From positions 1-56,369 of the IMG/VR virus record IMGVR_UViG_3300027573_000035: 56,369 nt of DNA; one strand, 5' to 3'. Made by a program: the position numbers and the translations under genes. The notes under the pieces were generated by a model. It made no database searches. It was not told where the DNA came from and was given only the letters and a program-made list of their open reading frames with translations. The stretch is from a virus. Positions 3,025 to 41,962 of this stretch are shown here, one piece after another; the stretch's first letter is position 1; each line of letters begins with the position of its first letter.

Positions 3025-3050
3025 ACCGGCACAACCTGCCGGTTTTTTTT
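3025..3050 (+). terminator. Intrinsic terminator with ACCGGCA/TGCCGGT stem
   Basis: ACCGGCA at 3025-3031 pairs with TGCCGGT at 3037-3043 around a five-base loop and runs into eight T bases. It closes the unit ending at 3004. The stem is the heptamer that is over-represented across the window. Confidence 0.85.
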
Positions 3051-3075
3051 CTGCCTGAAAAAAAGTCAAAATAAA

Positions 3076-3107
3076 TTTGGACGGTAAATCAGGAACAGGT
3101 ATTTTTG
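3076..3107 (+). promoter_or_regulatory. Bacteroidetes-type promoter
   Basis: TTTGG at 3076-3080 is separated by 19 bases from TATTTTTG at 3100-3107, an exact match to the TAnnTTTG -7 element. Transcription would begin a few bases downstream, leaving a short leader before ATG 3132. It directly follows a terminator, as expected for a new transcription unit. Confidence 0.7.
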
Positions 3108-4449: not shown

Positions 4450-4479
4450 GACCGGCACCAAAAATGCCGGTCTTTTTTT
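4450..4479 (+). terminator. Intrinsic terminator, GACCGGCA stem
   Basis: GACCGGCA at 4450-4457 pairs with TGCCGGTC at 4465-4472, followed by seven T bases. It separates the gene ending at 4440 from the promoter at 4514. Confidence 0.85.
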
Positions 4480-4513
4480 GTCCAAAAATATCTTCCAAAA
4501 AGGTCAAAATAAA

Positions 4514-4573
4514 TTTGGTCAACCAAATCAGGAACCTTTATTTTGTACTTTCTTTATTTAAAACCAATAAAAT
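4514..4573 (+). promoter_or_regulatory. Promoter plus leader element upstream of the DUF932 gene
   Basis: TTTGG at 4514-4518 lies 19 bases before TTATTTTG at 4538-4545, one mismatch from TAnnTTTG. The element AAAACCAATAAAA at 4560-4573 then precedes ATG 4582. The same order (promoter, T-rich start, leader element, ATG) recurs at 7485 and 47428. Confidence 0.65.
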
Positions 4574-6577: not shown

Positions 6578-6795
6578 AAAAACAAATGAACATGAATGCA
6601 CTTGAATTGCTTGCTGAAGTAGTTCAAAACCGCAACTGGTATGCAGGTCTGGAAATAGACAGACGTTTGGCAGGTGAATATAAAAGGAACCTTGTCAAAG
6701 GAAAAGTGTCATATGGTAAAGCCTGCCAATTGCTTGAATCACTTGGTTTTTCCAAGGTGAAGGAAGAAACATGGAAAATTGGCATGATGCCTTAA
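6574..6795 (+). CDS. Small protein with possible helix-turn-helix (73 aa)
   Basis: Begins in an ATGA overlap. Residues 17-60 contain an Arg/Lys-rich stretch, a Gly turn and a second helix (A-C-Q-L-L-E-S-L-G-F), compatible with a short DNA-binding helical protein. This is a weak structural reading, not a family match. An exact 21-base direct repeat begins seven bases after the stop and reaches the start codon of the next gene. Confidence 0.6.
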   Translation: MKKQMNMNALELLAEVVQNRNWYAGLEIDRRLAGEYKRNLVKGKVSYGKACQLLESLGFSKVKEETWKIGMMP

Positions 6796-7065: not shown

Positions 7066-7388
7066 TGGAACTGAAGATGATGGTCACGGCAAAACCAAAT
7101 GACTTCCAATGGTTTTGAATAATCAGGATGATGTGATTCAGACCTTGCTTCACCACATATGCAGCAAGGTCTTTTTTTAATCAATCCCCGTTTAATATGG
7201 GAATGCAGGTAAGACCTTGCATTTTTCTTCATCTTCTGTTCAGGTGTCAGTTCAGCATATTTTGGACGGTTTAAACGCATATAAGCAGCATGACAGGCTT
7301 TACAATATCCCTGACCAAGCCTGCTTGCTTCAATCGGACTGCCACACTTACAATATTGAAACCTGAACATGACCTTAAAATAATGCAA
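7038..7388 (-). CDS. HNH endonuclease-like protein, reverse strand
   Basis: The product (116 aa, or 110 from the internal Met at 7370) begins with a zinc-finger-like segment (C-K-C-G then C-K-A-C). After a basic helical region it ends with C-C-I-C-G, H-H-P-D-Y and W-F-C-R-D-H-H. This matches small phage HNH proteins in which Cys pairs hold a structural zinc and the His residues form the beta-beta-alpha-metal site. Such proteins nick or cut DNA, sometimes aiding packaging or acting as free-standing homing nucleases. It is one of only seven reverse-strand genes, sits alone between forward genes, and overlaps the 6820 gene tail to tail. Confidence 0.8.
   Translation of the reverse strand: MHYFKVMFRFQYCKCGSPIEASRLGQGYCKACHAAYMRLNRPKYAELTPEQKMKKNARSYLHSHIKRGLIKKRPCCICGEARSESHHPDYSKPLEVIWFCRDHHLQFHQGLVSIPA
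7140..7178 (+). terminator. Forward-strand terminator embedded in the HNH coding sequence
   Basis: AGACCTTGCT at 7140-7149 pairs with AGCAAGGTCT at 7163-7172, followed by seven T bases. On the reverse strand the same bases encode the Lys-Lys-Arg and Cys-rich segment of the HNH protein. It probably ends transcription of the forward genes finishing at 7065. Confidence 0.65.
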
Positions 7389-7484
7389 GCAAGGATAAAT
7401 TGCAACCTGAACAGGAACATTTTTTGATGACCTTCTTCCAATATCCTGTCATTTAATGCATTATAAAAAATAAGTCCAAGAAAA

Positions 7485-7543
7485 TTTGGTCATGTCAATT
7501 TATTTGACTATATTGACCTTGAATCTTTTAAAACCAATAAAAT
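7485..7543 (+). promoter_or_regulatory. Promoter plus leader element for the metallopeptidase-like gene
   Basis: TTTGG at 7485-7489 is followed after 19 bases by TATATTGA (7509-7516), a partial match to TAnnTTTG. The element AAAACCAATAAAA at about 7530-7542 abuts the ATG at 7542. The weak -7 box lowers confidence. Confidence 0.5.
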
Positions 7544-8204
7544 GAAACAGTTTAACAAGGCTGAAGCAGAACAGCACATCAACAAACTGCTGAAGAAACA
7601 CAACATTGAAGTGTATGGTTGGTCTTCCACTTCATCAGGCAGGGCAAAGGTTAAATCAAGGAAAGTCAAAATCCCCAAACCAACCAACATTGACAGGTTT
7701 GCCGTTTGCCTGCATGAAATCTTCCATGTCATCAGCAAGAAAGGAAGCAAGTCATTTGAAAAGGAATTTTATTGTGACATGTATGCACTTGACACCCTGA
7801 AGCAGATGAACCTGCCGGTTGACAGGTGGATTATCAGGATGCGTTGGCATGTCTTAAGCAGAATTGCCATGGCACACAACAGGGGTTTGAACCATGCAAA
7901 CATCAACCAAGAAATCAGGCTTTTCTTTTCTGAAATTGACTTTGCAAAATGGATTGGAAAAAAAGTTTATGTTGGTCATAAATATTGGGAATCCAACAAC
8001 CCTGATGACATTGAACTTTATCCCAACATGTCCTTCATCACCATCCAAGTCAAGCTTCAGGAAAAAGGATTCAAGGTTATCAAATCAACTTGTGATGACT
8101 CAACTTATGGAAATTATATTGTGTCAAAAATTCCGGCACCTGTCAAACATGGTGAAGAATTTGAAACCCTGCATGACATCATCAAAGCTTTTAAACTGTC
8201 ATAA
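7542..8204 (+). CDS. Putative zinc metallopeptidase-like protein (HExxH)
   Basis: The 220-residue protein has an HExxH motif (H58-E-I-F-H62) inside a hydrophobic helix, followed about 14 residues later by E-F-Y-C-D-M-Y-A-L, which could supply a third metal ligand as in ImmA/IrrE-like and similar small metallopeptidases. The rest is helical, ending in a beta-rich segment. It might cleave a host or phage regulator, but no substrate is indicated. It has its own promoter and leader and is followed by another promoter at 8209, so it may form a single-gene unit. Confidence 0.65.
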   Translation: MKQFNKAEAEQHINKLLKKHNIEVYGWSSTSSGRAKVKSRKVKIPKPTNIDRFAVCLHEIFHVISKKGSKSFEKEFYCDMYALDTLKQMNLPVDRWIIRMRWHVLSRIAMAHNRGLNHANINQEIRLFFSEIDFAKWIGKKVYVGHKYWESNNPDDIELYPNMSFITIQVKLQEKGFKVIKSTCDDSTYGNYIVSKIPAPVKHGEEFETLHDIIKAFKLS

Positions 8205-12230: not shown

Positions 12231-14948
12231 ATGCCGGTTGAAAATTTAGTTGTCAATATGAAGTTGGAAGCAACAGGACAACAGACGGTTGATGCAGTTG
12301 TTGACAAGATGGTTGAAGGACAGCAGGAAGTCAAGAATGAAGTCAAGCAGACCAATGATGCCTTCAAGGTTCAGGAAGGTGTCATTGACAGTGCAGGTGG
12401 TGCAATGGCAGAATATGCCGGAAAGGTGAAGGATGTTGGCAAGGCAACAACAGGTGCATTTGGTGCCAAGGCATTGAAGGATTTTGAAAAGGCAGGTGTG
12501 CAGGCTTTCAAGAATGTTGTCATTGGTGCATCAAAATCAGGTGCAGCCTTCAAAAGTGTTGGCAAGGATATCAAGGCAGGAATAGGTGATGCACTGAAGG
12601 CAGCAGGTGTCAGTGTGGATGACTTTAATCAGGCATTAAAGGAAGCAGGTGTCACTGCTGATGATTTTGCAGCATCAATTGTGCAGACTGCTTTTAATAC
12701 TGAAGAAATAGTTGAAGCATTTGAAGCTGTTGACAGAACAGGCATGTCATTGAAGACAAGGCTGAAGGAATTGAAGGACCAATTGTCATTGATGGAAGAT
12801 GCAGGATTGGAAGGAACAGCCATGTTTGAAACCATGGCAATTGAAGCTGGTTCCCTTGAAGACCAACTTGGTGACACTGCTGCAAGAATCAGAACATTGT
12901 CAAGTGATACACAAAATATTGATGCTGCTGTTGAAGGTGTGCAAGTGATGGCATCAGGTTTCCAAGTGGCAGCAGGTGCAGCAGCAGTTTTTGGTGCAGA
13001 AGATGAAAACCTTCAGAAAGTCATGGTGAAATTAAATGGCATCATGGCAATCACAACCGGCATTCAGCAATTGATGAATTTCCTGCATGGTCAATCATCA
13101 TTAAGGTTGAAACTTGCTGCTGCTGATAATGCCTTATTTGCAATGTCAAACAGGGTGACAGCAGCAACATTGACAATGGTTGGTTCAGCAGCAACAGCAA
13201 CATCAGTGACCTTTAAAGTTTTAAGGACAGTGATGATGACCCTTGGGATTGGGTTGATAATTGCTGCAATTGGTTTTCTTGTAGATATGATGATGACATG
13301 GTCAGATGAAACTGAAACTGCTGAAGATGCACAAGCAAGATTGGAAACACAAACACAAAAGACCAATGAAGCCATCAAGGACCAGACAGATGCATTGGAT
13401 GATTTGAATGAAACCAATAAATTAAGGGCAAAGCTTGCAGGTGCATCTGAAGAACAACTTTTCAGGATTGAACAGAAAGGCATTCAGGACAGAATCAACA
13501 TCAGGAATAAAGCAATCAATGATGCCATCAATTCAAAATCAAAAGAAATTATTGACACAACTGAACTGATTAAGGCAAATAATGCTGATTTGAATTTGCT
13601 TGAGAACAACAGGCTGAATCATCAGATTGATTTACAACAGGAAGCAGCAGATAAATCAAAAAAAATTGGTGAAGATGCTGCAAAGGATAAAGAAAAAAAG
13701 GCAAAGGAAGATGAAGAAAGGGAACAAAGGCAGGTTGATGCATTGGACACTATCAACAAGAATGCACTTCAGAAGCAGATTAATAATAATAAAGAAATAT
13801 TATCTAATACAACTTTAAATCAGGAAGTAAGGAATAATGCAGAAAAGGACCATCAAATAAAACAGATTGAATTGGCAAATCTTGAAAAAGAAATTTTATT
13901 AAGAAATAAAGAATTGGGCGCAACTGAAATATTGTTGATTGAAGAAGAAACAAATCAAAAGATTGAAGATATCAACAAGGAACATGCAGCAAACATTTTA
14001 AAGATTTGGCAAGACAGTCAAAAAAATCAGGTTGATTTAAAAAAGGCACCTGACATTGTTGATGCCACTGATGAACAGTTGAAAAGTCAATTTGCATCAA
14101 TGATGACAGTGACCACTGAAAATGCAGAAAAGGAAATCAAGACCATTGAAGACACTGAAAAAAAGAAAGCTGAAACAAGGAAGGCAGCAGCAGCAGCAAC
14201 CATCAGTGCAGTCACAGAAGCAGCAAATGCATTATTTGAAGCAGGTGCAGAAAGACGGCAAAAAGAATTAGATGATGCACTTGCAAAAAATCAGGCTGCA
14301 ATGGAAGGTGAATTGAATAATAAGAATTTGACAGAACAGCAGAAAGATGATATTGCAAAAAAGTATGCAGCAAAGGAAAGGTTGTTGAAGATTGCTGCAT
14401 TCAATGATGACAAGAAAGCCAAAAGGACAGCAGCAATCATCAATGGATTGTTAGGTATTACAAATGCATTGGCAACTGCACCAACCATCATTGCAGGTGT
14501 CATCCTTGCAGCATCAGTTGCAGCAACAACAGCAATTGCAGTTGCTAAAATTCAGGCTGCACAACCAGGATTCAAAAAAGGTGGATATACCGGCAATAAA
14601 AGGAAGGATGAAGTGGCAGGTTTTGTCCATGGACAGGAATATGTTGCACATGCTGAAGCATATAAAAGATATAAACCGGCACTTGAAGCAATGAATGATT
14701 TGAAGTTTGAAGACTACATCAAAAGGATTGCACCTGTCTATTCAATGCCGCAAATGGTTGCACTTCCTGAAACTATTAATGGACAACCCTTGTTTAATAT
14801 AGATTATGACAGGATTGGAATTGCAGTGGCAAAGCATTCAGACAGCAAACCAAGGATGATAATGAATGCAGATGCAAATGGACTGTCCATCTTCATGCAG
14901 GAAAAGAACAACATCACCAAGATTCAAAATAAAAGGTACAGTCTTTAA
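12231..14948 (+). CDS. Tape measure protein (905 aa)
   Basis: This long, Ala/Lys/Glu-rich, mostly helical protein sets tail length. It contains extended coiled-coil stretches (about residues 380-680), a hydrophobic region around residues 300-355 with Met/Ile/Gly-rich segments, a second Ala/Gly-rich hydrophobic stretch near 745-785, and a short globular C-terminus starting near K-K-G-G-Y-T-G-N. Length, composition and the position directly after a frameshifted chaperone-like gene are typical for siphophage tape measures. At about 0.15 nm per residue this predicts a tail near 130-140 nm. Confidence 0.88.
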   Translation: MPVENLVVNMKLEATGQQTVDAVVDKMVEGQQEVKNEVKQTNDAFKVQEGVIDSAGGAMAEYAGKVKDVGKATTGAFGAKALKDFEKAGVQAFKNVVIGASKSGAAFKSVGKDIKAGIGDALKAAGVSVDDFNQALKEAGVTADDFAASIVQTAFNTEEIVEAFEAVDRTGMSLKTRLKELKDQLSLMEDAGLEGTAMFETMAIEAGSLEDQLGDTAARIRTLSSDTQNIDAAVEGVQVMASGFQVAAGAAAVFGAEDENLQKVMVKLNGIMAITTGIQQLMNFLHGQSSLRLKLAAADNALFAMSNRVTAATLTMVGSAATATSVTFKVLRTVMMTLGIGLIIAAIGFLVDMMMTWSDETETAEDAQARLETQTQKTNEAIKDQTDALDDLNETNKLRAKLAGASEEQLFRIEQKGIQDRINIRNKAINDAINSKSKEIIDTTELIKANNADLNLLENNRLNHQIDLQQEAADKSKKIGEDAAKDKEKKAKEDEEREQRQVDALDTINKNALQKQINNNKEILSNTTLNQEVRNNAEKDHQIKQIELANLEKEILLRNKELGATEILLIEEETNQKIEDINKEHAANILKIWQDSQKNQVDLKKAPDIVDATDEQLKSQFASMMTVTTENAEKEIKTIEDTEKKKAETRKAAAAATISAVTEAANALFEAGAERRQKELDDALAKNQAAMEGELNNKNLTEQQKDDIAKKYAAKERLLKIAAFNDDKKAKRTAAIINGLLGITNALATAPTIIAGVILAASVAATTAIAVAKIQAAQPGFKKGGYTGNKRKDEVAGFVHGQEYVAHAEAYKRYKPALEAMNDLKFEDYIKRIAPVYSMPQMVALPETINGQPLFNIDYDRIGIAVAKHSDSKPRMIMNADANGLSIFMQEKNNITKIQNKRYSL

Positions 14949-22351: not shown

Positions 22352-23302
22352 ATGGCACTGACTTTTGATGAAATATTGATTGCAATTCAGGAAGCAGTTG
22401 ACCGATTGGGCAAGGTAGCTGCTGACAAACAGAATCCTTTATTCAGGGAAGTGATGACCATGCTGAAGCAGTTGGAAACAAAAGGTGACACCATCCTGAA
22501 TAATGTAAACAACCTGAAATTAATAAACAATCTTAAGGCTAAAATTGAAAGGATTGTCATTGATAAAAAATATAAGGCAGAACTGAAGACCTTTGCCAAG
22601 GCATTTGAACAAATTGGTAATATGCAAAACCAATATTTTGCAACCTTCAACACCAAGTTCAAACCAAAGGCAGTCATGAATGTCCTGAAGAAAGATGCCA
22701 TCAAAACAACCCTTACAAACTTAACTGAAGCAGGTCTTCAGGCAGGTGTCACTGATGGTTTAAGAAGGATATTGTTGACCAATGTCACAAGTGGTGGCAG
22801 TTATGCAGCATTGACAGACCAATTAAGAAACCACTTAACAAACAATGCAACTGGTGAAGGTGCCTTGGAACGTTATGTGAAGACATATGCAACCACTGCA
22901 ATCAATCAGTTCAGTGCAGAATACAATAAAAAAATATCATCAGATTTGGGTTTAAAATGGTACATGTACACAGGAAGCCTTATCACAACATCCCGTGATT
23001 TTTGCATTCATGCAACTGAGAAGACGTATATGCATGAAAGTGAATTTCCAACCTTATTGAAAGGCAATATTGATGGACAGCAGGTCCACCTGAATAAGAA
23101 GACAGGACTTCCAGACGGCATGATGGAAGGCACCACACCTGACAACTTTCCAAGAAGAAGGGGTGGATGGAATTGCAGACATCAGTTGATTGCAGTGGAT
23201 GATTTAATTGTTCCAAAAAATGTGAAGGACAGGGTTTATTCAACAAGGGAATTTCAAACATGGTCATTGCAGAACAATGTGCCGGTTGAAAACATGCCAT
23301 AA
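22352..23302 (+). CDS. MuF-like head morphogenesis protein (316 aa)
   Basis: The N-terminal 200 residues are helical. The C-terminal part contains S-R-D-F-C near residue 214 and R-R-R-G-G-W-N-C-R-H near 270-280, the signature of the phage Mu gpF / SPP1 gp7 family of minor head proteins that sit at the portal vertex. It begins three bases after the portal stop. The gene converges with the reverse-strand island, and a hairpin lies between the two ends. Confidence 0.85.
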   Translation: MALTFDEILIAIQEAVDRLGKVAADKQNPLFREVMTMLKQLETKGDTILNNVNNLKLINNLKAKIERIVIDKKYKAELKTFAKAFEQIGNMQNQYFATFNTKFKPKAVMNVLKKDAIKTTLTNLTEAGLQAGVTDGLRRILLTNVTSGGSYAALTDQLRNHLTNNATGEGALERYVKTYATTAINQFSAEYNKKISSDLGLKWYMYTGSLITTSRDFCIHATEKTYMHESEFPTLLKGNIDGQQVHLNKKTGLPDGMMEGTTPDNFPRRRGGWNCRHQLIAVDDLIVPKNVKDRVYSTREFQTWSLQNNVPVENMP

Positions 23303-23325
23303 AAAAACCGGCATCAAGTGCCGGT
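23301..23325 (-). terminator. Terminator between convergent genes, ACCGGCA stem
   Basis: ACCGGCA at 23307-23313 pairs with TGCCGGT at 23319-23325; the A run at 23301-23307 becomes a T tract for reverse transcription. The stop of the last island gene lies in the loop. The forward side also meets a T-rich stretch after a few bases, so it may act in both directions. Confidence 0.75.
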
Positions 23326-23517
23326 CAATCCTTTTTCTTTTCTTACAATGTCAATCCTTTTCATCAGGGTTTTGAACCAATTTTGAACAAGCATTTTATC
23401 ATGTCCTGCACGTCTGACCCTGTCAAACATCCAACCAAGATTGGTCAGTTCATCAACTGTCCAATTTCTTATTTCTTCAACTGATGGTGCCTTGTATTTT
23501 GAAGGTTTACTTATCAT
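23314..23517 (-). CDS. Island gene 6: small basic protein (67 aa)
   Basis: ATG 23517 lies two bases beyond the previous gene's stop; a GTG at 23526 is an alternative. The product is helical, Arg/Lys-rich and Trp-containing (N-W-T-V-D-E-L-T-N-L-G-W), consistent with a small helical binding protein. Its stop is inside the terminator hairpin. No family recognised. Confidence 0.65.
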   Translation of the reverse strand: MISKPSKYKAPSVEEIRNWTVDELTNLGWMFDRVRRAGHDKMLVQNWFKTLMKRIDIVRKEKGLTGT

Positions 23518-23518
23518 T

Positions 23519-23725
23519 TTATTCACCTGTTTTTATTGATTTTACAATTGCCCTTGCCATCTTTTCAATTGTTGGATAAATAATCATCTTACCTGAAGCA
23601 GTCAGTTTCATCATCACTTGTCCTTTACTATAAGACCAACCTGCAACTTCATTTGAATATTTTGCACCATTGTTAAGACTTTCAATAACTTCTTTAATTT
23701 CTGCCTGACTGATTGAACATTTCAT
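23519..23725 (-). CDS. Island gene 5: small protein (68 aa)
   Basis: ATG 23725 is chosen because it follows the promoter at 23749-23779; a GTG at 23749 overlaps that promoter. The product starts with a helix, has a W-S-Y-S-K-G-Q-V-M-M-K-L strand region and ends in a basic helix. It is co-transcribed with the 67-residue protein that follows. Function unknown. Confidence 0.65.
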   Translation of the reverse strand: MKCSISQAEIKEVIESLNNGAKYSNEVAGWSYSKGQVMMKLTASGKMIIYPTIEKMARAIVKSIKTGE

Positions 23726-23748
23726 GATTGATTGTGTTTTATAAGACA

Positions 23749-23779
23749 CAAAAATAATGGTTTCTTTTTACTGTCCAAA
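23749..23779 (-). promoter_or_regulatory. Reverse-strand promoter, exact TAnnTTTG
   Basis: Read on the reverse strand, TTTGG (23779-23775) is followed after 18 bases by TATTTTTG (23756-23749). It gives the last two island genes a promoter of their own, just after the terminator of the preceding gene. Confidence 0.7.
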
Positions 23780-23798
23780 TAAATCTTGACAGATTGAC

Positions 23799-23824
23799 AA
23801 AAAAAAACCGGCATTCCTGCCGGT
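23799..23824 (-). terminator. Reverse-strand intrinsic terminator, ACCGGCA stem
   Basis: ACCGGCA 23807-23813 and TGCCGGT 23818-23824 form the stem; the A run at 23799-23807 provides the T tract on the reverse strand. It ends the transcript of the gene at 23845-24051. Confidence 0.8.
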
Positions 23825-23844
23825 CATTAAACAATGGTTGTTTA

Positions 23845-24051
23845 TTATTCATCATCAACCACCTTGAACAGTGGTTGATTTTTGTTTGAAATTTCATACA
23901 CATAAACACCTGCCGGAAAATCTTCAGTTGATGTGGTCACAACTTTTGCAATCAAATCAAGTCCTTCATGCTTGAAAGGTTTGTTGATGATGGTTTGACG
24001 TGAATTGATTTTCAATAATTCAGCTAACTTTTTTCTGTTGATTGTTTTCAT
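23845..24051 (-). CDS. Island gene 4: small protein (68 aa)
   Basis: Starts at ATG 24051 just after a hairpin and an AAAACC-type leader. The N-terminal 30 residues are basic with K-K-L-A-E-L-L-K and could form a DNA-contacting helix; the rest is beta-rich and acidic at the end. No family recognised. Confidence 0.65.
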   Translation of the reverse strand: MKTINRKKLAELLKINSRQTIINKPFKHEGLDLIAKVVTTSTEDFPAGVYVYEISNKNQPLFKVVDDE

Positions 24052-24067
24052 TTTTTTGGTTTTAAGT

Positions 24068-24090
24068 GGACCGGCACTTTCTGCCGGTCC
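24068..24090. promoter_or_regulatory. Leader hairpin GGACCGGCA/TGCCGGTCC, copy A
   Basis: The stem pairs 24068-24076 with 24082-24090. A T run follows on the forward strand (24093-24099), so it could stop antisense transcription. On the reverse strand it sits between two island genes and is followed by ACTTAAAACC and the start at 24051. A near-identical copy lies at 24340-24361. Confidence 0.7.
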
Positions 24091-24097
24091 TGTTTTT

Positions 24098-24310
24098 TTA
24101 TTGATATTTCAAATCTTTTATTGATTCAGCTTCATACTTTTTTAAAACAGTGAAGGCTTTATCAAAGGTCTTGAAAGGTGTTCCTTCCCAACTGTTATAT
24201 CCTTTTGTCGTTTGGAATCCCCAAAAACCATTGTCATCTTGTTCAATGGTAGCAATTTCATTCAATGAAGCTTCAAGTTCAATCCTGATGGTGGTGGTTA
24301 AAAATTTCAT
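24098..24310 (-). CDS. Island gene 3: small protein (70 aa)
   Basis: ATG 24310 is directly preceded on the reverse strand by AAAACCAATAAA, the genome-wide leader element, which decides the start over an extension to 24400. The product has G-F-W-G-F-Q-T-T-K-G-Y aromatic residues in the middle and a Lys/Glu-rich helical end. No family recognised. Confidence 0.7.
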   Translation of the reverse strand: MKFLTTTIRIELEASLNEIATIEQDDNGFWGFQTTKGYNSWEGTPFKTFDKAFTVLKKYEAESIKDLKYQ

Positions 24311-24339
24311 TTTATTGGTTTTAATTTTTGGTTTTAAGT

Positions 24340-24361
24340 GGACCGGCATTCCTGCCGGTCC
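24340..24361. promoter_or_regulatory. Leader hairpin GGACCGGCA/TGCCGGTCC, copy B
   Basis: The stem pairs 24340-24348 with 24353-24361, followed on the forward strand by seven T bases. The flanks match copy A at 24068-24090 apart from the loop, so a whole intergenic module appears duplicated between island genes. Confidence 0.7.
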
Positions 24362-24368
24362 TGTTTTT

Positions 24369-24569
24369 TTAAACAATTGGAATCCATAATTTTTTATCAA
24401 GATACTTTTGAACTGAAGTCAATGCTTCCCGATATTCCTGACCACCTTCTTTTTTAGTTACAAATAAACTTTTATCTGTAATCCTTACAACAATATCAAT
24501 TCCTGATGCTTGACCATTACCATAAAAAGTTTCAAATTTCTGTCCAACCTTAACTTCAGTGCTTTTCAT
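24369..24569 (-). CDS. Island gene 2: small protein (66 aa)
   Basis: ATG 24569 is chosen because the promoter at 24590-24621 lies between it and the longer start at 24620. The product is beta-rich (F-E-T-F-Y-G-N-G, I-D-I-V-V-R-I) with a basic helical C-terminus. Its stop overlaps the A/T run of hairpin copy B. Function unknown. Confidence 0.65.
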   Translation of the reverse strand: MKSTEVKVGQKFETFYGNGQASGIDIVVRITDKSLFVTKKEGGQEYREALTSVQKYLDKKLWIPIV

Positions 24570-24589
24570 ATATTTTTTGTTTTGTTCCA

Positions 24590-24621
24590 CAAAACAAAGC
24601 CTTTTTTCAATACAGTCCAAA
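24590..24621 (-). promoter_or_regulatory. Reverse-strand promoter
   Basis: On the reverse strand TTTGG (24621-24617) is followed after 19 bases by TTGTTTTG (24597-24590), one mismatch from TAnnTTTG. It serves the gene starting at 24569. Confidence 0.6.
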
Positions 24622-24679
24622 TTTATTTTGACAATTTGGAAAGTTTTTTTTCAGTGCCGGTCAAAACAGGACCAATCCA

Positions 24680-24880
24680 TCAGCCTGTTCCAAATACCTT
24701 TTCCTTCAAATCTTTCCATTCCCTTATAATACGGTAATACACTTCTGGTCTTTTCAGGACCAATCCATCATTAAATTCCAATCTGATTTGTTCTTCCTTA
24801 ACAATCCTGCTGATGTCTGATGGCAGGTTCCTTAGCATGCTTGAACAGGCTTTATTATGTTGATTGTTAGATTCTTGCAT
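24680..24880 (-). CDS. Island gene 1: small protein (66 aa)
   Basis: The frame is open to 24958, but the promoter at 24913-24945 lies inside that extension, so ATG 24880 is chosen. The product has a helical core with L-P-S-D-I-S-R-I-V and a C-terminal I-I-R-E-W-K-D-L-K-E-K segment. This pattern resembles small regulatory helical proteins, but no family is named. It is the first gene of the island. Confidence 0.6.
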   Translation of the reverse strand: MQESNNQHNKACSSMLRNLPSDISRIVKEEQIRLEFNDGLVLKRPEVYYRIIREWKDLKEKVFGTG

Positions 24881-24912: not shown

Positions 24913-24945
24913 CAAATGTAGCATCATTCACAAGGCACTTCCAAC
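24913..24945 (-). promoter_or_regulatory. Reverse-strand promoter, exact TAnnTTTG
   Basis: On the reverse strand GTTGG (24945-24941) precedes TACATTTG (24920-24913) by 20 bases. It heads the reverse island and is divergent from the forward gene at 25002. Confidence 0.65.
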
Positions 24946-25001: not shown

Positions 25002-25388
25002 ATGGCAAAGGTCTTGGTTGTCACTGATTATGGTGGTTGGCTGCACATTGTGCCGGTCAACAATAAGAATTGGCATTTGGAAAGGAACAAGGTCATCAAG
25101 GACAAGCAATACAGGCTGAAGGAAATGGAAGAAGAAGAAGCAAATAAGTTTTATGATGATAACAATGGTGCCGACCCGTCATTTGTTTCACCTAAAAAAG
25201 CAAATCAAATGATTGCTTCCAAGGATGATGAAATCAAACAGTTGAAGGAACAGCTTGCAATGACCAATGGTGTCAGTGGACAAAAAAAGTCAGGTCATGT
25301 CATAAAGGAATCACCACTTGAAGCCAATGGTGATGCAGGACCGGCAGTAAAAGCCAATCAATTAAAAGGCAGTATTATAAATCAATAA
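25002..25388 (+). CDS. Hypothetical protein in the head module (128 aa)
   Basis: The N-terminal 30 residues form strands with a G-G-W turn; residues 35-95 are Lys/Glu/Asp-rich with coiled-coil potential; the end is Gly/Lys/Ala-rich and probably disordered. It lies between the reverse island and the scaffold gene and could be a minor head or assembly protein, judged only by position. Confidence 0.7.
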   Translation: MAKVLVVTDYGGWLHIVPVNNKNWHLERNKVIKDKQYRLKEMEEEEANKFYDDNNGADPSFVSPKKANQMIASKDDEIKQLKEQLAMTNGVSGQKKSGHVIKESPLEANGDAGPAVKANQLKGSIINQ

Positions 25389-25483: not shown

Positions 25484-26404
25484 ATGCCTGCACAATTTGG
25501 AAACCTGATAAAAAGTCTTGCAACAAAGGCAGGGTTGAAATCTGATGATGACACCATTAAAAAGATTTTGGCAATTGCTGATGTTTCCACATTGGAAATT
25601 CCTGATGAATTTAATCAGGCACTTGAAACCAACCTTTTGACAGAACAATCTGCTGCTGCAAATACCAATGTCAGAAGCAGACTGTTTGCTGAAGCTTTAA
25701 ATGGTGTTGATGTTGAACTTGAAAAATTTATTCCTGATTATGAATTTGATGATACATTCAAGAATGAATGGAAAGCCAACAAAAACACCAATGACAAGAT
25801 AAGAAGGCTGCAATCACAACTGAAGACACAAGTTGATAAAATAAAGGAAGCAGCAAAAACAGGAAAGCATGATGCAAATGCTGAAGCACAAGTGTCTGCT
25901 TTAAAAGGACAAATCACAGACTTAAACAAACAGCAGGAAAATTTGAAACTGCTGCATCAGACTGAATTGGATAATTTAAAAAATCAAAGTTTAGTTGACA
26001 AAAAAAATTATCTGCTTCAGACCAAGCTTGCAGGAAAGCCATTGCCCAAAAACGGTCTGGCACCTGAAATCAATATCTTAACGGCAAAGACCTTGCTTGA
26101 ACAAGACCTTGCAAAAAACAATTTGACCATTTCATTTGATGCCAATGGTCAAGCAATCTTGAAACAAAGGAAAGACGGCAGTGAAATTGACTTTTTTGTT
26201 GATAATAAACTGGTGACTTTTGATGGTTTCATTGATGGTGTATTAGCACAAAACAAATTCGTTCAAATTAATGATTCGCAATCCCAACAAGGACCGAATA
26301 AAACGAACTTTCAGCAACCACCACCATCAACACAACATCCATCAAATGCTTCAGTTGTTGCAGATATAGATGCACAACTTATTGAATTAGGTGTGCAGGT
26401 GTGA
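25484..26404 (+). CDS. Capsid scaffold protein (306 aa)
   Basis: The protein is highly charged with a long Lys/Gln/Glu/Leu-rich coiled-coil region (about residues 95-175), a compact segment near 185-255, and a Gln/Pro/Asn-rich linker before a short hydrophobic C-terminus (A-D-I-D-A-Q-L-I-E-L-G-V). It lies directly before the major capsid gene, the classical scaffold position. Residues near the C-terminus would contact the capsid protein in such systems. No protease motif was seen. Confidence 0.75.
   Translation: MPAQFGNLIKSLATKAGLKSDDDTIKKILAIADVSTLEIPDEFNQALETNLLTEQSAAANTNVRSRLFAEALNGVDVELEKFIPDYEFDDTFKNEWKANKNTNDKIRRLQSQLKTQVDKIKEAAKTGKHDANAEAQVSALKGQITDLNKQQENLKLLHQTELDNLKNQSLVDKKNYLLQTKLAGKPLPKNGLAPEINILTAKTLLEQDLAKNNLTISFDANGQAILKQRKDGSEIDFFVDNKLVTFDGFIDGVLAQNKFVQINDSQSQQGPNKTNFQQPPPSTQHPSNASVVADIDAQLIELGVQV
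25579..25596 (+). repeat. 18-bp direct repeat inside the scaffold gene, copy 2
   Basis: Exact copy of 25441-25458, here encoding A-D-V-S-T-L-E of the scaffold N-terminal region. Confidence 0.8.
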
Positions 26405-41622: not shown

Positions 41623-41962
41623 AAAGAAACCACACAAACCACCACACAAGAAGCACTAAACCCAATGAACATGCACTTGCAGCCAAGGGTGCAAAAAAAA
41701 TGCGGTTGTAAAAGGTCACCATCAGTGGATTAAAAGTTTTCGGCAATTAACAATGAAGAAGCTGATGGTGACTTATAACTTGAAGGATGGTGTCAATGGA
41801 AACACAGTTGCATGAAAGCAGCAGATGACAGTTCAACCCTGTTTCCTTCAACTTTGCTTTTCTGTTTTATTTTAGGTTTTAAAGGGTTAATTTTCAAAAA
41901 ACGGCAGTTTGTTTCCACTTACTGCCTTTTTCTATTATTTTACAAATTCAAAAAAAACCAAT
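41623..41962 (+). other. 340-bp stretch without a confident gene
   Basis: Two tiny frames occur here (22 codons from ATG 41665 and 20 codons from ATG 41753), neither convincing. An 11-base inverted repeat (GTCACCATCAG near 41717-41727 and CTGATGGTGAC at 41761-41771) could fold into a stem with a 33-base loop. A terminator-like stem GGCAGT 41903-41908 / ACTGCC 41921-41926 followed by T bases ends the stretch. It may be a decayed gene or an untranslated RNA. Confidence 0.4.
41903..41931 (+). terminator. Terminator-like hairpin before the ATPase gene
   Basis: GGCAGT 41903-41908 pairs with ACTGCC 41921-41926 and is followed by five T bases. It lies about 30 bases before ATG 41963. Confidence 0.5.

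Follow-up and report, generated by a model that had tools for sequence, protein, structure and literature searches.

Why would a phage carry six very small genes on the opposite strand in the middle of its late head operon? The question is raised by a viral DNA of 56,369 nt (IMG/VR record IMGVR_UViG_3300027573_000035; this whole stretch is referred to as the window) from an uncultured phage whose host is probably a member of the Bacteroidota.

Layout of the island

Six minus-strand ORFs with ATG starts, g1 (24680–24880, 66 aa), g2 (24369–24569, 66 aa), g3 (24098–24310, 70 aa), g4 (23845–24051, 68 aa), g5 (23519–23725, 68 aa) and g6 (23314–23517, 67 aa), form an island between a MuF-like head gene and the o128 and scaffold-like genes. 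The MuF-like gene (22352–23302, plus strand, 316 aa, with relatives identified by tblastn) lacks a toxin tail, and its stop codon converges with that of g6 at a distance of 12 bp, with a hairpin in between. On the far side of the slot lies o128 (25002–25388, plus strand), a small head-region gene with homologues at the same place in two relatives, L035 and L033, followed by the scaffold-like gene (25484–26404, plus strand), whose homologues adjoin the MCP-like gene in relatives and for which family searches gave no convincing match. A codon-usage gene caller applied to the whole window returned 70 genes, 64 of them on the plus strand, and the remaining six are exactly g1–g6, all with positive codon-usage scores, in agreement with the island of tiny inverted genes described in the first-pass annotation. 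The same caller placed minus-strand genes only within the slot in the two relatives that were read almost whole, G001 (59 kb, 3 of 67 genes) and G002 (60 kb, 1 of 88). The similar size of the six products had been taken, together with the inversion and the dense regulation, as a sign of a separately controlled cassette; it holds in the window, but slot genes of the relatives range from about 53 to 264 aa, and because the uniformity is not conserved there we rejected it as a signal that, on this comparison of sequences, carries no information. Elsewhere in the window, a tRNA-like gene without an assigned anticodon is found at 41781–41852.

Promoters

Bacteroides promoters recognized by sigma-ABfr have a −33 element TTTG and a −7 element TAnnTTTG (PMC7366714), and both types of element are found in three predicted minus-strand promoters of the island, P1 upstream of g1 (24913–24944, TTGG-N-TACATTTG, a consensus match), P2 upstream of g2-g3-g4 (24586–24633) and P5 upstream of g5-g6 (23745–23791). 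The phage promoters differ from those of Bacteroides in having an extended upstream element, GTCAAAATAAATTTGGAC, which is common to this phage group. The earlier proposal that at least three genes have promoters of their own thus holds, with the class being sigma-ABfr rather than sigma-70; a scan for sigma-70 promoters remained at chance level (14 found, 13.7 expected) and that class was discarded. The P1 element is kept in place upstream of g1 in G001, with a −7 sequence of TACTTTTG, and its −7 element is also kept in G002, as TACCTTTG.

To score promoters of the early type, we used a two-block position weight matrix (PWM) whose training set consisted of seven early-region promoters of G001 and no others; 'early' is here assigned by position, beside the replication and small-gene regions. 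Seven sites in the window score 15 or higher, compared to 0.9 expected: P2 with the top score of 37.8, P5 with the second-highest of 33.3, four plus-strand sites in non-structural regions (3064, 4502, 8197 and 47416) and a weak minus-strand site overlapping 4502. Across 200 second-order Markov shuffles no score exceeded the maximum of 25.3, and in the structural region no site reached 15, the top score being 13.2. With P2 and P5 as the two top early-type sites and no such site among the structural genes, the island probably belongs to the early regulon as an outlying part of it. Two island promoters of G001 that were outside the training set score 47.5 and 42.8, the latter being the orthologue of P2. 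P1 fits the core consensus, not the extended early matrix. In G002, several slot and early promoters (L056–L058: 9634, 9913, 43758, 44366, 44724, 49495, 50211 and 53421) have a common spacer palindrome, GTGTA-N-TACAC, a candidate operator for a phage regulator, and none was seen in the structural genes of that genome.

Terminators and hairpins

The hairpins that had been said to separate several of the genes were located at four positions (23306–23326, 23806–23825, 24068–24090 and 24340–24361), with folding z-scores from −3.8 to −7.8. A predicted minus-strand terminator follows g4 (23797–23825, GACCGGCA..TGCCGGTT followed by T9) and lies directly upstream of P5; two sub-threshold Rfam matches over it were judged to be due to chance. 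The hairpin between the MuF and g6 ends (23299–23326), the predicted terminator after g6, resembles the one after g4 in its strong minus-strand U-run and has a weaker one on the plus strand. The inner pair of hairpins, between g3 and g4 (24068–24090) and between g2 and g3 (24340–24361), have T-runs on the plus strand only and are therefore not minus-strand terminators; they could instead block antisense late transcripts that cross the island. Taken together, the predicted minus-strand units are P1-g1, P2-g2-hairpin-g3-hairpin-g4-terminator and P5-g5-g6-terminator. The arrangement of a terminator followed by a promoter, seen in the early region (3026/3064 and 4452/4502), recurs in the island (23825/23791). 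In the early region, CCGGC terminator hairpins lie directly upstream of the promoters, at 3026–3107 and 4452–4550. With early-class promoters of its own, terminators and the opposite strand, the description of the island as a separately controlled cassette is well supported.

Conservation and coding status

Orthologues in the same slot and on the same strand were found by tblastn for g1 in L035 (the G001 contig, a 73–88% relative; 80% identity) and L033 (a 52–76% relative; 55% identity), and for g2 in L035 (72% identity). Comparison of the window with G001 gave dN/dS of 0.13 for g1, with dS saturated, and 0.27 for g2; for the flanking MuF, scaffold and MCP-like genes the values are 0.10–0.13, with dS high or saturated. 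By this measure, purifying selection acts on both g1 and g2. The orphans g3–g6 were otherwise found only in two near-identical contigs, with no diverged homologue among the relatives searched (none of g4 in those examined), and a match of g3 in L048, extending over 15 residues only, is probably due to chance. The coding status of these four genes therefore rests on codon usage and the fit of promoters, leaders and terminators. No relative of g1 or g3 was found among GTDB genome contigs, no isolated phage matched the slot DNA, MuF, g1, g2 or g3, and a search for paralogy among the six genes or with early genes revealed none.

Properties of the products

As anticipated from the first reading, none of the products belongs to a recognizable family: searches of g1–g6 against Pfam, PHROGs, NCBIfam and PADLOC, the last covering defence systems rather than counter-defence, gave no known anti-defence or other family, and weak sub-threshold matches were judged to be due to chance. 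The AF2 model of g2 (pLDDT 46) is too poor for use. For g1, which is divergent from o128 and is the conserved member of the island across lineages, we sought a ribbon-helix-helix (beta-alpha-alpha) fold; the AF2 model (pLDDT 82) shows three helices and no strand, with low confidence for the N-terminal helix and good confidence for the other two, and neither structure nor profile comparison with the PDB, nor Pfam, gave a match. Inverted repeats cover the −7 element of the g1 promoter in G001 (GTTACTTTTG-N12-CAAAAGTAAC, L035 about 6584–6710) and, as a different repeat, in G002 (GGTAACC-TGG-GGTTACC, L066 about 12650–12745); both are candidate operators. A protein weakly similar to g1 is found at the same place in L069. 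The repeats and the L069 protein fit a small autoregulator, so that g1 may tentatively be considered a candidate DNA-binding regulator, although no such regulator emerged from the fold test.

The slot in related phages

Among relatives collected by searches with the MuF and MCP-like proteins, the flanks are syntenic and the contents of the slot change wholesale. Judged from these alignments, the slot between MuF and o128/scaffold is a conserved hot-spot with variable content. In L074, L075 and L080 it is empty. On the short contig L075 (1–4268), scaffold- and MCP-like genes lie in reverse orientation between a pair of MuF-like genes, which could be an assembly artefact. In G001, an ORF resembling a methyltransferase (PF13578, L035:3811–4443, plus strand) directly follows MuF and precedes reverse-strand genes that include g2 and g1. 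In G002, MuF is part of a 565-aa protein that has an HExxH motif; a convergent 72-aa ORF, a plus-strand array of small genes and a reverse-strand g1 follow. Because this slot has its genes mostly on the plus strand, a reverse orientation is not a requirement.

More distant relatives carry toxin domains fused to MuF, an ADP-ribosyltransferase (ADPrib_exo_Tox, PF03496; L009, L010, L072 and L022/L081), a papain-fold toxin (Gln_amidase, PF15644; L008/L068) or, as a weak match in L018, CdiA_C. The L072 protein is a relative of the window MuF and matches Phage_Mu_F at 0.0017. Facing these genes, the slot may hold a reverse-strand ADP-ribosylglycohydrolase (PF03747 tested in L022, with clear sequence homologues in L010, L070 and L072), a reverse-strand HTH_3 protein or small genes without a family. 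In L077 and L079 the MuF toxin is present and the reverse-strand gene absent, so that the pairing of toxin and reverse-strand gene is a tendency rather than a rule. In L069, the slot has a reverse-strand RNA ligase (PF09414, 2.9e-20; 7369–8106), possibly acting in RNA repair against host defence.

Comparison with MuF toxin and immunity loci

The content of these slots suggests an alternative that had not been considered in the first reading, immunity to MuF toxins. Small ORFs beside muf are a hallmark of MuF toxin–immunity loci, and the island has g6 in that position. In PhiBxa, a prophage of Bacteroides stercoris, the head region carries the gene for the MuF-ADP-ribosyltransferase Bxa next to three ORFs. 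An immunity function is proven for two of the three products, the hydrolase BAH and the inhibitor Bsi, and polyimmunity has been discussed for this locus (PMC11699363). The window resembles it in the place beside MuF in the head region, and its distant relatives do so in combining a MuF-ADP-ribosyltransferase with small ORFs and an ADP-ribosylglycohydrolase gene on the reverse strand; the window differs in having a MuF without a toxin tail, six unrelated small genes with early-type promoters and no hydrolase. The MuF polymorphic toxins of temperate phages likewise have small ORFs downstream of muf, directly after the portal gene. According to Jamet et al. (2017, PMC5576092), these ORFs are associated with MuF genes that encode a toxin domain rather than with short ones, whereas the window combines a short, toxin-less MuF with six neighbours.

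The island could thus be an immunity or polyimmunity locus in which g2–g6 neutralize MuF-type toxins of competing or ancestral phages, the phage having lost its own toxin tail or never had one. The toxins facing reverse-strand genes in the relatives and the Bxa precedent speak for this. On the other hand, the 316-aa MuF of the window has no toxin family match, compared to about 533–841 aa for toxin-bearing relatives; no island protein resembles the candidate immunity proteins of the relatives or any known immunity family; and g1 persists whatever the MuF tail. We consider this explanation unlikely, if conceivable. A specific version, in which a toxin-less phage keeps an early-expressed poly-immunity array so that the infected cell would survive MuF toxins injected by competitors until replication is complete, appears quite unlikely.

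Comparison with phage morons

Classical morons are typically expressed from a prophage and dispensable for lytic growth. The island resembles phage morons and accessory loci as extra genes between conserved operon genes that are variable or absent in relatives, with in silico promoters (P1, P2 and P5) and terminators (after g4 and g6) independent of the operon, and antisense to lytic genes, a placement typical of accessory loci (PMC7067206). It differs from the described morons in having six genes in three units, the early promoter class of the phage itself and no sign of lysogeny in the lineage. These likenesses would also suit a classical lysogenic-conversion moron, expressed from the prophage and benefiting the host cell, but the promoters are of the same class as those of phage early genes, and the window, G001 and G002 gave no match to integrase, resolvase or HTH_3; prophage expression is therefore not supported, nor is lysogeny, though conceivable, and we regard such a moron as improbable.

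That the island is a non-coding or antisense regulatory region with incidental ORFs is highly improbable, for although g3–g6 lack diverged homologues and the region has strong hairpins in an antisense position, codon usage is positive in all six ORFs, g1 and g2 are under purifying selection, the ORFs tile the island with leaders and terminators in register, and Rfam gave only the two sub-threshold matches over a terminator.

A probable early outpost in the head operon

In our view the island is likely to be an early-regulon outpost, set backwards in the late head operon and encoding small, host-directed accessory products. The PWM scores of P2 and P5, the G001 island promoters, the G002 palindrome and the recurring terminator–promoter module argue for this reading, as do the restriction of minus-strand genes to the slot in the window, G001 and G002 and the variable or empty slot between syntenic flanks; the misfit of P1 to the extended matrix, the lack of diverged g3–g6 homologues and the mostly plus-strand slot of G002 argue against it. 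According to the proposed mechanism, the outpost would have been inserted backwards at the variable slot between MuF and o128/scaffold, and host RNA polymerase with a sigma-ABfr-type factor would read P1-g1, P2-g2-g3-g4 and P5-g5-g6 early, while the surrounding late head genes are still off. The terminators and hairpins would keep the two directions of transcription apart, g1 would be a possible local regulator, and the products would be small accessory proteins acting on the host or on competitors, in counter-defence, host takeover or toxin immunity.

The suggestion of anti-defence or host-takeover genes fits the predicted early expression and the RNA ligase, ADP-ribosylglycohydrolase and MuF toxins in the relatives' slots, but finds no family match in the island itself. 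An early-made accessory locus for defence, counter-defence or immunity is the most likely role, and the island is best read as moron-like, with early accessory genes occupying a slot for MuF toxins and immunity. It is a new form of moron-like or MuF-associated accessory locus in a kind of slot that is already known.

Between MuF and scaffold lies a single addressable slot whose cargo, in this phage group, ranges from toxin tails and immunity enzymes to an RNA ligase and small orphan proteins, in part with early promoters. Because such cargo is swapped there, the slot is a place to seek new counter-defence or immunity proteins, and g2–g6 are short, ready candidates for such screens. If the poly-immunity explanation were true, the island would represent toxin immunity of phage versus phage in a lineage without a sign of lysogeny.
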